DNA from: Selenomonadaceae bacterium
GTDB taxonomy: Bacteria; Bacillota; Negativicutes; Selenomonadales; Selenomonadaceae
DNA: 64,000 bases
Assembly: GCA_030523645.1 (NCBI GenBank)
Contig: JAUNIB010000001.1
Span: 186,001-250,000 of the forward strand
Direction of reading: 5' to 3'
In this document: piece after piece, positions 12,268 through 52,200 of the stretch
Position numbering within the stretch: position 1 is the stretch's first letter
Layout: each line of letters begins with the position of its first letter
Program-made: the position numbers and the translations under genes
The notes under the pieces: model-generated
Databases searched by the model: none
What the model saw: the letters and a program-made list of their open reading frames with translations, nothing else
What the model was told of the DNA's origin: nothing

Positions 12268-12374
12268 CCCCGCGACTTTGAAGGAAACTGAATGTCTGCT
12301 GTATACGGACACACCCGGCTGCCCGCACCCAATGACCTTCTCCTATGAAGATGGTCACGCACCGCCCACACCAA

Positions 12375-12482
12375 AAGGCTCCCCTATAGGGGAGCTGTCG
12401 GCGCAGCCGACTGAGGGGTAACCAATAATCAATCTCGTAGGCTCCCCTGTAGGGGAGCTGTCGGCGCAGCCGACTGAGGGGT
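12375..12482. repeat. two tandem REP-like palindromic units
   Basis: Two near-identical 44-bp units (12375-12419 and 12439-12482) each contain a palindrome around GGGGAG plus a second one, TCGGC-gca-GCCGA, and end in CTGAGGGG. A reverse-orientation unit occurs at 21333-21383 and diverged ones at 15414-15460 and 15758-15800, so this is a dispersed family with two hairpins per unit. Confidence 0.85.
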
Positions 12483-12534
12483 AACAGACAGACGAAACCG
12501 TTTACTTTTTCACCCCTCCGACCTGCTTCGCAGG

Positions 12535-12643
12535 CCACCTCCTACAAACATGCTAAGTTCATCCGTCGCTTCGCTCGGATATCATTAAGCAGTTTGCCTG
12601 GCTCGCACTAAATTCGCAAGCTCATTAAGTGCTCATGCACACC
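12535..12643. repeat. left arm of 109-bp inverted repeat flanking the autotransporter
   Basis: This stretch matches the reverse complement of 15550-15658 at 102 of 109 positions by direct reading, without gaps. It contains a small hairpin around CATCCG/CTCGGAT. The last 48 bases of the arm, nearest the gene, are identical. It lies 120 bp before the autotransporter ATG. Confidence 0.9.
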
Positions 12644-12720
12644 TGGAGGGGAGGCTCCCCCAAAATACCTTCCCCTTTGGGGAAGGTGGCCGAGCGCAGC
12701 GAGGTCGGATGAGGTAACAC
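12644..12720. repeat. REP-like palindromes between the inverted repeat and the autotransporter
   Basis: Contains GGAGGGGAGGCTCCCCC and TTCCCCTTTGGGGAA palindromes, then GCCGAGCGCAGCGAGGTCGGA. The same type of modules recur at 15480-15545 and 15650-15720 on the other side of the gene. Confidence 0.65.
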
Positions 12721-12762
12721 AACCAACAACTGCAATTTACATAGACAACTGGAGGAACGACC

Positions 12763-15405
12763 ATGAAATTAATGACCGGCCTGAAGAAAAAACAAATCTG
12801 TGCAGCCATTGCTTTTGGACTGATTTTCACTATGGGAGGACAAAAGGCGGAGGCTACGGCGACCACTGGACTGCATGGTGCAACAGTCGGTAAGAAAGAA
12901 ATTAAAGACGGTTCTAATACATTGGCAAAGGCGGATAATGAAACTACGCATATTGCTGAGTCTAATGACGCATCGAATAGTCTTGAATCAGGTGCCGAGT
13001 TTACCGTTTTGGGCGGAGAGTGGAAAAATGTATACGGCGGCATCGGAAATAGTACTGACGCTACTGCAAACAATAAAATAACTATTTCCGGCGGTACTGT
13101 AGAACTTGTTGTTGTTGGCGGCGATGCAGGCACTAGTACCTCTGCTGTTACCAAAAATATAGTAAATATTGGAGGCAGTGCCAGTGTAAACTACGCTGTT
13201 TACGGTGGCCGTGACAACTGTGAAGGCGAATGCTCCAACGCAGAGGTCAAAAGCAATGAAGTAAATATCAATGGCGGTACAGTTAAAGGAAACATTTATG
13301 GTGGCTTTGCTAAAGGAGGTAATGCTACTGATAATGAGGTAGTTATTGCTAATATTAAGTGCGAGAGTGTGGATGTTTATGGGGCGCTTTATATTGTGGG
13401 TGGTCTTTCGGATAAATATGCTAAAGGCAATAGCGTAACAATTAAAGGCGGTACCTTTACATCCACCAAGAATGGTCATACGATTCAGGGCGGTAGTGCT
13501 GGTGCCGGTACCGCAACAGAAAACACCGTAACCATCGAGGGCGGTACCTTTGACTCCTATGTAAATATTTATGGTGGTAAAGGCAAAACCGGTGCTTCTG
13601 GCAATATAGTAAATATCAGTAGGGATGTTAAATTTGATGCCCAAAATGAAGCTAGCAGTAAGAATGGAGTGCTTCAGGCACTTCATGGCGGTCATTCCGT
13701 AAGCGGCGCGGCTTCCAACAATGTGATAAATATCAGCGGTGGCTCTATTACAGGTACAGGCACTGGGTTAAGCACGTCTTTTGATTACGGAATTGCTGGC
13801 GGCTTTGTCTCCGGCGGTGTCGGCATGGCTGAAAACAATGTGGTAAATATTAGCGGTGGTGAGTTTAAGGATATTAGGATTTTTGGCGCTTGGGGTCAGG
13901 TTGGCACCAATAATAATACCGTAAATATCAGCGGCGGCAGCTTTGACAACGTGAGTGTCTTCGCTGTTGGCGCCGCTACTACCGCTACCTGTGCTGGCAG
14001 CAATAACAACGTTAACCTGATTGGTGTAGGCGGCAAGCTAAATGGGATTTCCCATAGCGGCGCGGCATTCTCGCTGGGGACTGTCGGCAGCGGCAGCGGC
14101 TCAGGCAATATCTTGAATATAACCGGTACGGATACAACGGTTACTAATGTCACAGGCTTTGCAAATGTCAATTTCGTTATCACCAGCGCCATGGCGAATG
14201 GCGCTACTATGCTCACAATTGATGAAGATGCTGCTACTGACTTAAGTGGTGCTGCCGTTAGTGTCAAGGCCGAAGCCGGTGCCAATCTGCAGGCTGATAC
14301 GAAAATAAACCTTGTGCATAAAACGAAGGGGGGAGCTTTGGAACTGCCGGCCGCAGACAAAATAACCATCCAAAAGAGCGGTGTCAGCGCCAGCTATGCA
14401 GAGGTACTTAAGACGGCATTAGAAGGTACAGAAGAAAACGACCTCGTTCTGAATGTCAAGGAAAGCATCAGCATCGCCGAGAACGGAGAGCTGGGCGCCA
14501 ACGCCAAAAACATGGTGGAGACAAGAGCGGCCGGCATGGCGGTAGTCAATGAGGCCGTGGACTTCGTAACCGGACAGGGCATGGGTCAGGCGAAGCTGGC
14601 CGCCAAAGCAGCGACTAAGGAAGGCAGCCGCTCGCTGGCTCCCTTCGCCTCCGTCGGCGGCGGCAATATGCGCTACAACTCCGGCTCTCATGTAGACAGC
14701 AAGAGCTGGCACGGTACCGTGGGTCTCGCCAAGGAAATCGGCGACCTGACTGTCGGTCTCGCCATCAACCACGGCAGCTCCAGCTATGACTCCTACAATG
14801 CCGGCGGAGTCCACGGCAGCGGCAGCAGCAAGTCTACCGGTGTCACCGTCATGGCAGAGGTCAGCCGGGAAAACGGCGTCCACTACGATGCCGCCCTGCA
14901 GGCCGGGCGACTGAAGAACGACTACAGCGCCAACCTCTCCGGCTACGACACCAGCTATGATGAAAGTTCCAACTACTACGGTCTGAGTCTCGGCGGCGGC
15001 AAGGAATTCACCATCAGCGACAAGGAAAAGGTAGATGTCTACGGCCGCTACTACTGGAGCCATACCAACAGCTCCGATACGACGACCAATACCGGTGACC
15101 GGCTGAGCTTTGATGCGGTGAATTCACACCGCCTCCGTCTCGGCGGCCGCTACACCCGTACTGTCAATGATATGAGCCGCCTCTATGCCGGTCTCGCCTG
15201 GCAGTATGAGTTCAACGGAGATGCCCGGGCTGTCATCAATGGACAGGGTGCGCCCAGTCCGTCTCTGAAGGGTCACAGCGCTATGCTGGAGCTGGGCTGG
15301 AAGGCCGATGTGGCGAAGAATCTTGCCATCGATCTCAATGTCAGCGGCTGGACAGGTAAGCAGCGAGGCGTCACCGGCTCTCTGGGACTCAAGTGGATGT
15401 TCTGA
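12763..15405 (+). CDS. autotransporter adhesin (repeat-rich passenger plus C-terminal beta-barrel)
   Basis: 880 residues with GGAGGAACGACC before the ATG. A signal peptide (about 1-31, ending QKAEA) exports it. The passenger (about 32-600) has some eleven degenerate repeats built on N-x-V-N-I-S-G-G plus a following GG turn between about residues 105 and 455, predicting a beta-helix. Residues 620-880 are an autotransporter barrel: alternating aromatic/hydrophobic strands such as WHGTVGLAKEI, HRLRLGGRYTR and AMLELGWKAD, ending in the terminal aromatic of LKWMF. The barrel inserts in the outer membrane and displays the passenger. Base composition changes sharply near 14450: the passenger is AT-richer with codons such as AAT, ATA and GTA, the barrel is GC-rich like the neighbours, suggesting a swapped passenger. 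The gene lies between inverted repeats. Confidence 0.93.
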   Translation: MKLMTGLKKKQICAAIAFGLIFTMGGQKAEATATTGLHGATVGKKEIKDGSNTLAKADNETTHIAESNDASNSLESGAEFTVLGGEWKNVYGGIGNSTDATANNKITISGGTVELVVVGGDAGTSTSAVTKNIVNIGGSASVNYAVYGGRDNCEGECSNAEVKSNEVNINGGTVKGNIYGGFAKGGNATDNEVVIANIKCESVDVYGALYIVGGLSDKYAKGNSVTIKGGTFTSTKNGHTIQGGSAGAGTATENTVTIEGGTFDSYVNIYGGKGKTGASGNIVNISRDVKFDAQNEASSKNGVLQALHGGHSVSGAASNNVINISGGSITGTGTGLSTSFDYGIAGGFVSGGVGMAENNVVNISGGEFKDIRIFGAWGQVGTNNNTVNISGGSFDNVSVFAVGAATTATCAGSNNNVNLIGVGGKLNGISHSGAAFSLGTVGSGSGSGNILNITGTDTTVTNVTGFANVNFVITSAMANGATMLTIDEDAATDLSGAAVSVKAEAGANLQADTKINLVHKTKGGALELPAADKITIQKSGVSASYAEVLKTALEGTEENDLVLNVKESISIAENGELGANAKNMVETRAAGMAVVNEAVDFVTGQGMGQAKLAAKAATKEGSRSLAPFASVGGGNMRYNSGSHVDSKSWHGTVGLAKEIGDLTVGLAINHGSSSYDSYNAGGVHGSGSSKSTGVTVMAEVSRENGVHYDAALQAGRLKNDYSANLSGYDTSYDESSNYYGLSLGGGKEFTISDKEKVDVYGRYYWSHTNSSDTTTNTGDRLSFDAVNSHRLRLGGRYTRTVNDMSRLYAGLAWQYEFNGDARAVINGQGAPSPSLKGHSAMLELGWKADVAKNLAIDLNVSGWTGKQRGVTGSLGLKWMF

Positions 15406-15413
15406 GACCTTCA

Positions 15414-15545
15414 GAGGCCCCCATTGAGGGGGGCTGTCAGCGCAGCTGACTGGGGGGTGTAAGCAGACTCACGAATTTATCTTCACCCCTCCGGCACTTC
15501 GTGCCACCTCCCCTAGAGGGGAGGCTTACCCCAAATACCTTCCCT
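15414..15545. repeat. REP-like palindromes downstream of the autotransporter
   Basis: 15414-15460 has the CCCCCATTGAGGGGGGCTGTCAGC type unit; 15484-15530 holds CACCCCTCCGGCACTTCGTGCC and CCCCTAGAGGGG. These are the same modules as upstream, in mixed orientation. No open reading frame is supported here. Confidence 0.7.
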
Positions 15546-15549
15546 ATTG

Positions 15550-15658
15550 GGTGTGCATGAGCACTTAATGAGCTTGCGAATTTAGTGCGAGCCATGCAAA
15601 CTACTTAGTGATATCCGAGCGCAGCGAAGGATGAACTTAGTATGTTTGTAGAAGGTGG
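15550..15658. repeat. right arm of 109-bp inverted repeat flanking the autotransporter
   Basis: Reverse complement of 12535-12643 with seven mismatches. It lies 144 bp after the autotransporter stop codon. The two arms enclose about 2.9 kb containing only that gene. Confidence 0.9.
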
Positions 15659-15699
15659 CAGCCGAAGGCTGACGGATGAGGTAATATAACCTCAACCAC

Positions 15700-15800
15700 C
15701 GGCTTCGCCGGTCCCCCCCTCTCCAGAGGAGATGGTCACGCACCGCCGACACCCAAAGGCCCCCATTGAGGGGGGCTGTCGCCGTAGGCGACTGGGGGGT
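15700..15800. repeat. REP-like unit; direct-repeat partner of 12350-12420
   Basis: The stretch beginning GATGGTCACGCACCGCC at 15731 repeats, in the same orientation, the stretch at 12350, and both run on into a TGTCGGC/TGTCGCC-type palindromic unit. So the cassette carries an outer pair of imperfect direct repeats outside the inverted pair. Confidence 0.7.
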
Positions 15801-15816
15801 GTCGGATATACTCAAG

Positions 15817-51885: not shown

Positions 51886-52029
51886 GGAACCACTACTCTA
51901 TAAGAAAAATAAATGACAGATGGCGTGCAATTTATTTTATAAAAAATCTTTATGATTGCTATTGACAATAATTAACGCGTGTGTTACTATGAGCGTGTTG
52001 CAGGGAGATGCAACAAAAACTGAATAATG

Positions 52030-52200
52030 AGGGCTAGGTGTCGTAGACTTAATAGATAAGCCGGTGAAGCCGGCACGGTCCCGCCACTGTAACGAGGAGC
52101 GAATCTGCACAGCGAAAGCAAGCCACTGTATATCGGGAAGGCGCAGACGAGCGATGAATCGAAGTCAGGAGAACTGCCTAGCTGACATCGTCGATTGACC
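52030..52200 (+). promoter_or_regulatory. cobalamin (B12) riboswitch aptamer
   Basis: The conserved cobalamin-riboswitch boxes occur in order: GCCGGTGAAGCCGG (52069-52082 region), GGTCCCGCCACTGTAA (52077-52092), AAGCCACTGTATATCGGGAAGG (split 52119-52142) and GAAGTCAGGAGAACTGCC (52161-52178). AACTGCC deviates by a base from the common ACCTGCC. A GC-rich hairpin with T run follows at 52284-52307, a likely expression platform. No coding gene follows for about 480 bp. Confidence 0.93.

Follow-up and report, generated by a model that had tools for sequence, protein, structure and literature searches.

A two-hairpin repeat nested in REP-like palindromes probably accounts for the inverted repeats around an autotransporter gene in a Selenomonadaceae bacterium

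Miniature elements derived from IS200/IS605 elements have end hairpins of the same polarity, carry mismatched hairpins, and generate no target duplication. Full insertion sequences are also known that insert specifically into REP palindromes, among them ISPpu9, ISPpu10, ISPa11, and ISRm22 (PMC1525189). REP dimers nested in other palindromes have been described in Anabaena variabilis (GTAG-15), T. roseum (GTAG-23), and H. neapolitanus (CGTC-1), and the target palindrome is present in hundreds of copies in T. roseum; Firmicutes, Selenomonas, and Veillonella are not named in the text of that study (PMC3733652). In REPIN/RAYT systems, the repeats are short, nonautonomous, intergenic hairpins (PMC3116915, PMC2817692).

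The locus studied here is an autotransporter gene in a 64,000-nucleotide stretch of Selenomonadaceae DNA (the window is this whole stretch). A first-pass annotation had placed inverted copies at 12535-12643 and 15550-15658, with matches at 102 of 109 positions, and this count was exact. The match between the two arms extended beyond 109 bp, covering 127 nt (12517-12643 and 15550-15676) with 14 mismatches (89% identity), and the longest identical run between them was 45 nt. As the annotation had also stated, the autotransporter gene (Pfam Autotransporter PF03797, 73 bits) was the sole gene between the arms, and a pair of imperfect direct repeats, which we aligned over 84 nt, was present outside them. 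The coordinates of these and related features are shown in Table 1. Elsewhere in the window, a cobalamin riboswitch was found at 52019-52195 (88 bits).

Table 1. Features of the autotransporter locus (window coordinates)
Feature	Position	Strand	Details and basis
Block missing from the orthologous permease-CobW interval of G001	12320..15813		Synteny comparison
Outer direct repeat, left copy (REP mosaic)	12336..12419	+	Repeat comparison, family D3
REP-like palindrome interrupted by left element	12511..12655	+	Head CACCCCTCCGACCTGCTTCGCAGG, stem CCACCTCC/GGGGAGG; flank display and arm complementarity
99-bp two-hairpin element, left (TACAAAC...TGCACA)	12543..12641	+	Alignment of 34 copies, covariation, occupied/empty sites, host-arm complementarity
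REP-like palindrome, uninterrupted, between left element and gene	12661..12717	-	Exact stem pattern at C9:198668-198689
Autotransporter gene	12763..15405	+	880 aa; one of ~8 paralogous loci in the genome
Stem of uninterrupted REP-like palindrome downstream of gene	15504..15524	+	Pattern match C9:201504-201524
REP-like palindrome interrupted by right element	15537..15683	-	CCTCATCCGTCAGCCTTCGGCTG head, stem ACCTTC/GAAGGT; flank display and arm complementarity
99-bp two-hairpin element, right, same family, opposite orientation	15552..15650	-	Arm match, flank display, alignment, arm complementarity
Outer direct repeat, right copy	15717..15800	+	81% identical to left copy, family D3

Each arm was a composite: a REP-like palindrome whose stem was interrupted by a 99-bp element. 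When the full copies of the element were displayed with their flanks, all of them lay in the stem of such a palindrome, and the insertion point (in the 5' stem arm, 2 or 3 nt ahead of the loop) was constant in position and orientation. The host palindromes were of at least four kinds, with the stems CCTCC/GGAGG, CCTTC/GAAGG, GCTCC/GGAGC, and CCCTC/GAGGG. In 31 of 36 copies, representing five arm types, the 5-nt host arm was exactly complementary to the arm past the insert; when the right arms were shuffled among copies, complementarity was seen in 13 copies, with a maximum of 24. For the first two of these stem kinds, the genome had 111 stems without an insert, which leads to the estimate that roughly one in five is occupied.

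A search of the whole genome with the 109-bp arm, the check that the annotation had proposed, yielded 34 matches, which were spread over many contigs in both orientations; 32 of them covered all or almost all of the arm. All 32 examined copies were located outside predicted genes, and based on simple ORF calls they showed no orientation bias relative to neighboring genes (11, 7, 7, and 6 copies in the four possible arrangements). The annotation's own alternative, in which a composite repeat common between genes lies on both sides of this gene by chance, was thus the right one. Two inverted pairs within 3.1 kb were observed among the 32 copies, compared to 0.66 expected under uniform placement, and at least one such pair occurred in 48% of uniform random placements. 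The second pair (C3:94221/95791) enclosed an unrelated ORF without a Pfam match. Because the arm is one of about 32 dispersed copies, a pair in opposite orientation within 3 kb is unsurprising, even though the similarity of the two arms is far beyond chance, and the pair around the autotransporter gene is most simply a coincidence. Among the roughly eight autotransporter-like loci, copies close on both sides were seen only at the locus in the window; for the paralogue on contig C6, a copy was located at the contig end, 80 bp ahead of the gene start, and four other loci had no copies in the stretches that were read.

Some copies belonged to larger duplications with identical flanks, namely, C7:71543 and C7:74116, as well as C6:1388 and C6:1697 with C9:201550. 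At L010:3951-6621 (G000:C7), two identical copies bracketed an SLH-domain porin-like gene as direct repeats, and the identity of the copies and of the near downstream flank suggests a segmental duplication. At L002:3951-4399, a copy with the same sense as the 6S RNA gene was located about 150 bp downstream of that gene, and tRNA genes followed the copy.

Outside this genome, the arm had about 11 matches in G001, a Schwartzia-like Selenomonadaceae that was the single other species of the genus compared (a metagenome-assembled genome [MAG], 83% complete; one genome was used per species). A sample of 59 other genomes of the family produced one weak partial match, and a phage collection produced none. 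An exact 24-nt core had a sole match among bacterial genome contigs, in the Schwartzia MAG RGIG250, and no match among viral contigs; the bacterium studied here is thus probably a Schwartzia or a close relative. Since the element locus of G001 contig C41 was also present on one RGIG250 contig, RGIG250 is probably the same genome as G001.

The alignment of 34 copies supported two tandem hairpins, based on RNAalifold and pair counts. Eight pairs had changes on both sides (17 cells), and none of 500 shuffles reached the covariation score. Most of this support came from the first hairpin, as the second hairpin varied little, and the clearest covarying pair changed from G-C to A-T in 9 copies. The two hairpins were built alike: the stem was followed by an A.A mismatch, then by a segment of three pairs and by tandem T.C and C.T mismatches, which led into an inner stem. 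The internal loop common to both was CTAARTTC/TCAYTAAG, and the middle pair of its three-pair segment covaried (G-C or A-T). Covariation of this type fits single-stranded DNA and RNA alike.

When orthologous sites were compared between our species and G001, several differed in occupancy. The L003 15.7-kb site and the L011 site were occupied in our species, and at both orthologues G001 had the same REP without the element. The reverse was observed at the REP next to the L011 site, which was occupied in G001 and empty in our species, and the L019/L033 site was occupied in both. Such differences in occupancy between the two species suggest insertion. Joining the flanks across the L011 element in our genome restored an intact palindrome and left no extra bases, which makes a target duplication unnecessary, and no clear target duplication was observed at the insertion sites. 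Because the empty G001 palindromes at the L003 and L011 orthologues were both slightly degenerate REPs, loss with a scar is possible at these two sites.

The first-pass annotation had also raised excision or homologous exchange of the adhesin gene, and here the comparison with G001 was informative. In G001, the permease and CobW genes are adjacent, and their products are 90% and 94% identical to those encoded in the window. DNA synteny stopped at 12319 and resumed at 15814; therefore, the gene and all of its repeats form one presence/absence block. The G001 permease-CobW interval was about 90 bp and contained a different palindrome instead of one remaining direct-repeat copy. At the species level, this locus has thus truly gained or lost the autotransporter gene. 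For exchange, the evidence came from contig C6: over 163 bp, the right arm and its flank shared 98.8% identity with the repeat mosaic adjoining the C6 autotransporter-like gene, and the 5' leader of the window gene (12706-12830, inside the arms) was about 82% identical to the C6 paralogue leader. On this basis, REP mosaics may plausibly have exchanged autotransporter genes.

Inversion, which had been put forward as well, was unsupported. In a phase-variable or excisable adhesin cassette, the gene would be flipped by a distant recombinase or by RecA, or it would be lost between the outer direct repeats. The inverted 127-nt arms and the outer direct repeats do exist, and the block is missing at the sister species' locus, but the repeats of an invertible cassette should be private to the switch, whereas these are dispersed in about 32 copies, enough to place an inverted pair this close in nearly half of random placements. 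Paired copies were found at no other autotransporter paralogue seen, and the sister locus has its own palindrome where the loss of the gene between direct repeats would leave one repeat copy. Furthermore, flipping would not obviously switch expression, because the conserved 5' leader of the gene lies inside the arms. We consider such a cassette very improbable, and the locus illustrates that a genome-wide copy count should precede calling inverted repeats around a single gene a switch.

The arms are copies of a REP-nested two-hairpin repeat, which is best read as nonautonomous and mobile, in a block that was probably gained or lost, not flipped. Such a repeat, using REPs, fits the position-specific nesting, the occupied and empty sites, and the conserved shape. 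The strong helix covariation, the conserved internal loop, and the intergenic location of every examined copy would also be consistent with a functional RNA or cis-regulatory element (a terminator, a 3' end stabilizer, or a ligand or protein binding site) that was duplicated for its usefulness, but the copies have no preferred gene orientation and no Rfam match, and their presence differs between orthologous sites of sister species, which makes this explanation unlikely. We are similarly doubtful that no transposition took place and that the composite spread whole by recombination between REP mosaics, with the host arms acquired by conversion or template switching. The clustering of copies in REP-rich stretches and the duplications with identical flanks argue for that type of spread; against it, the sequences left and right of the insert change in concert across five arm types, and the occupied/empty differences are found at single REPs within otherwise syntenic intergenic regions.

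For the REP-nested mobile repeat, we propose a mechanism to which, as a whole, we give about even weight. The element would be a nonautonomous mobile repeat, it would spread in the form of folded single-stranded DNA, REP hairpins would be its landing sites, and the mover would be encoded elsewhere, with an IS200/RAYT-type HUH transposase as the first candidate. Separately, the autotransporter block was probably gained or lost as a unit via recombination between REP mosaics. In place of a tempting but unsupported phase-variation story, the locus would then illustrate a two-layer system, in which one structured repeat lands in the palindromes formed by another.

We detected no transposase with a link to the element. 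One Y1-type gene was present in the genome, which was RAYT-like (L098:1126-1761; G000:C9, ~293.2-293.9 kb) and scored 74.4 bits with NF047646, just under the cut-off of 80. Tandem GTAG-type palindromes were present on both sides of this gene (GTAGGGGTCGCCCGCAGGCGACCC and CGGGCTTGCTGCGGCAAGCCCCTAC), and it was rejected as the mover because its flanks were GTAGGGGTCGCC-type palindromes and not the 99-bp element. We also rejected a Y1 transposase gene near one copy in G001, as an ORF, which by eye we take to encode a uracil-DNA glycosylase, lies between them. PF01797 genes were present in 72 of 189 family genomes, and none carried the element ends among the minority whose flanks were inspected; the well-assembled, motif-bearing genomes G062, G021, G065, G070, and G072 had no PF01797 match.

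These results place the element near several known systems. Like the REP-targeting insertion sequences, it is inserted specifically in REPs, but those are complete and come with a transposase, whereas this element is 99 bp and noncoding, with no partner found. It shares with the GTAG- and CGTC-tagged REPs the nesting of palindromic repeats within other palindromes; here, however, the inner unit has two hairpins and a loop whose double mismatch is conserved, and REPs of several types form the outer units. In addition, no GTAG or CGTC tag directly precedes the element stem: the alignment starts with TACAAAC and ends with GCACA, and a minus-strand GTAG only spans the junction. Since these ends are not inverted copies of each other and no target duplication is needed, the element does not resemble a MITE of a DDE transposon. 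As in REPIN/RAYT systems, a hairpin repeat is dispersed between genes in many copies, and a RAYT-like gene with GTAG palindromes at both sides is also found in this genome, but the element is absent at that gene, and its two hairpins have the same polarity, whereas REPIN hairpins are inverted. The likeness to IS200/IS605-derived miniatures, as they are generally known, includes end hairpins of one polarity, mismatches, and the lack of a target duplication; in contrast to what such a relationship implies, no tnpA-bearing relative with the ends of the element was found among those PF01797 genes of the family, a minority, whose flanks were inspected.

Because outer stems differ among genera, the loop design, and not the flanks, is the common feature of the wider group. 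We scanned the 189 family genomes with the pattern CTAARTTC-N(4-34)-TCAYTAAG, using the reversed pattern as a control; a scan set at the order level covered these same 189 genomes. There were 59 matches in our genome, 21 in G001, up to 25 in a second genus (g21), and fewer in others, where a few matches look like chance; the control gave zero in nearly all genomes scanned. In other genera, the hairpin was set in quite different outer stems. A list of 67 matches was picked by hand from the scan and from neighboring loci, with most repeated sequences left out. The first four inner bases were fully paired in 46 of the 65 matches that had a long enough inner part, compared to 6.4 when the halves were shuffled, and the middle position over all 67 matches was G:C in 34, A:T in 29, G:T in 3, and A:C in 1. 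A loop that is conserved across genera while its stems are rewritten points to shape recognition by some protein. Rfam had no match to the element at or near threshold, and neither Rfam nor the literature searched, which included few subscription papers, described a two-hairpin, REP-nested repeat; it may be described elsewhere, but it appears to belong to an undescribed family. Tentatively, and with somewhat less than even confidence, we suggest a Selenomonadaceae family of structured repeats with a conserved loop and rewritten stems that either enters REP hairpins in the form of folded single-stranded DNA, by a further enzyme, or constitutes a new RNA motif.

Some further hairpin structures were also observed. 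At L043:1-300 (G001:C76), a divergent two-hairpin relative of the element adjoins a sequence resembling 5S rRNA and may lie within it (30 bits in Rfam, which is below threshold). REP-like palindromes of the genus also contained another hairpin element, which differs from the first but has its loop motif (L057:2330-2390, and L087 and L088 at ~1500), and at L087/L088 an adjacent hairpin has the loop motif with its two strands swapped.
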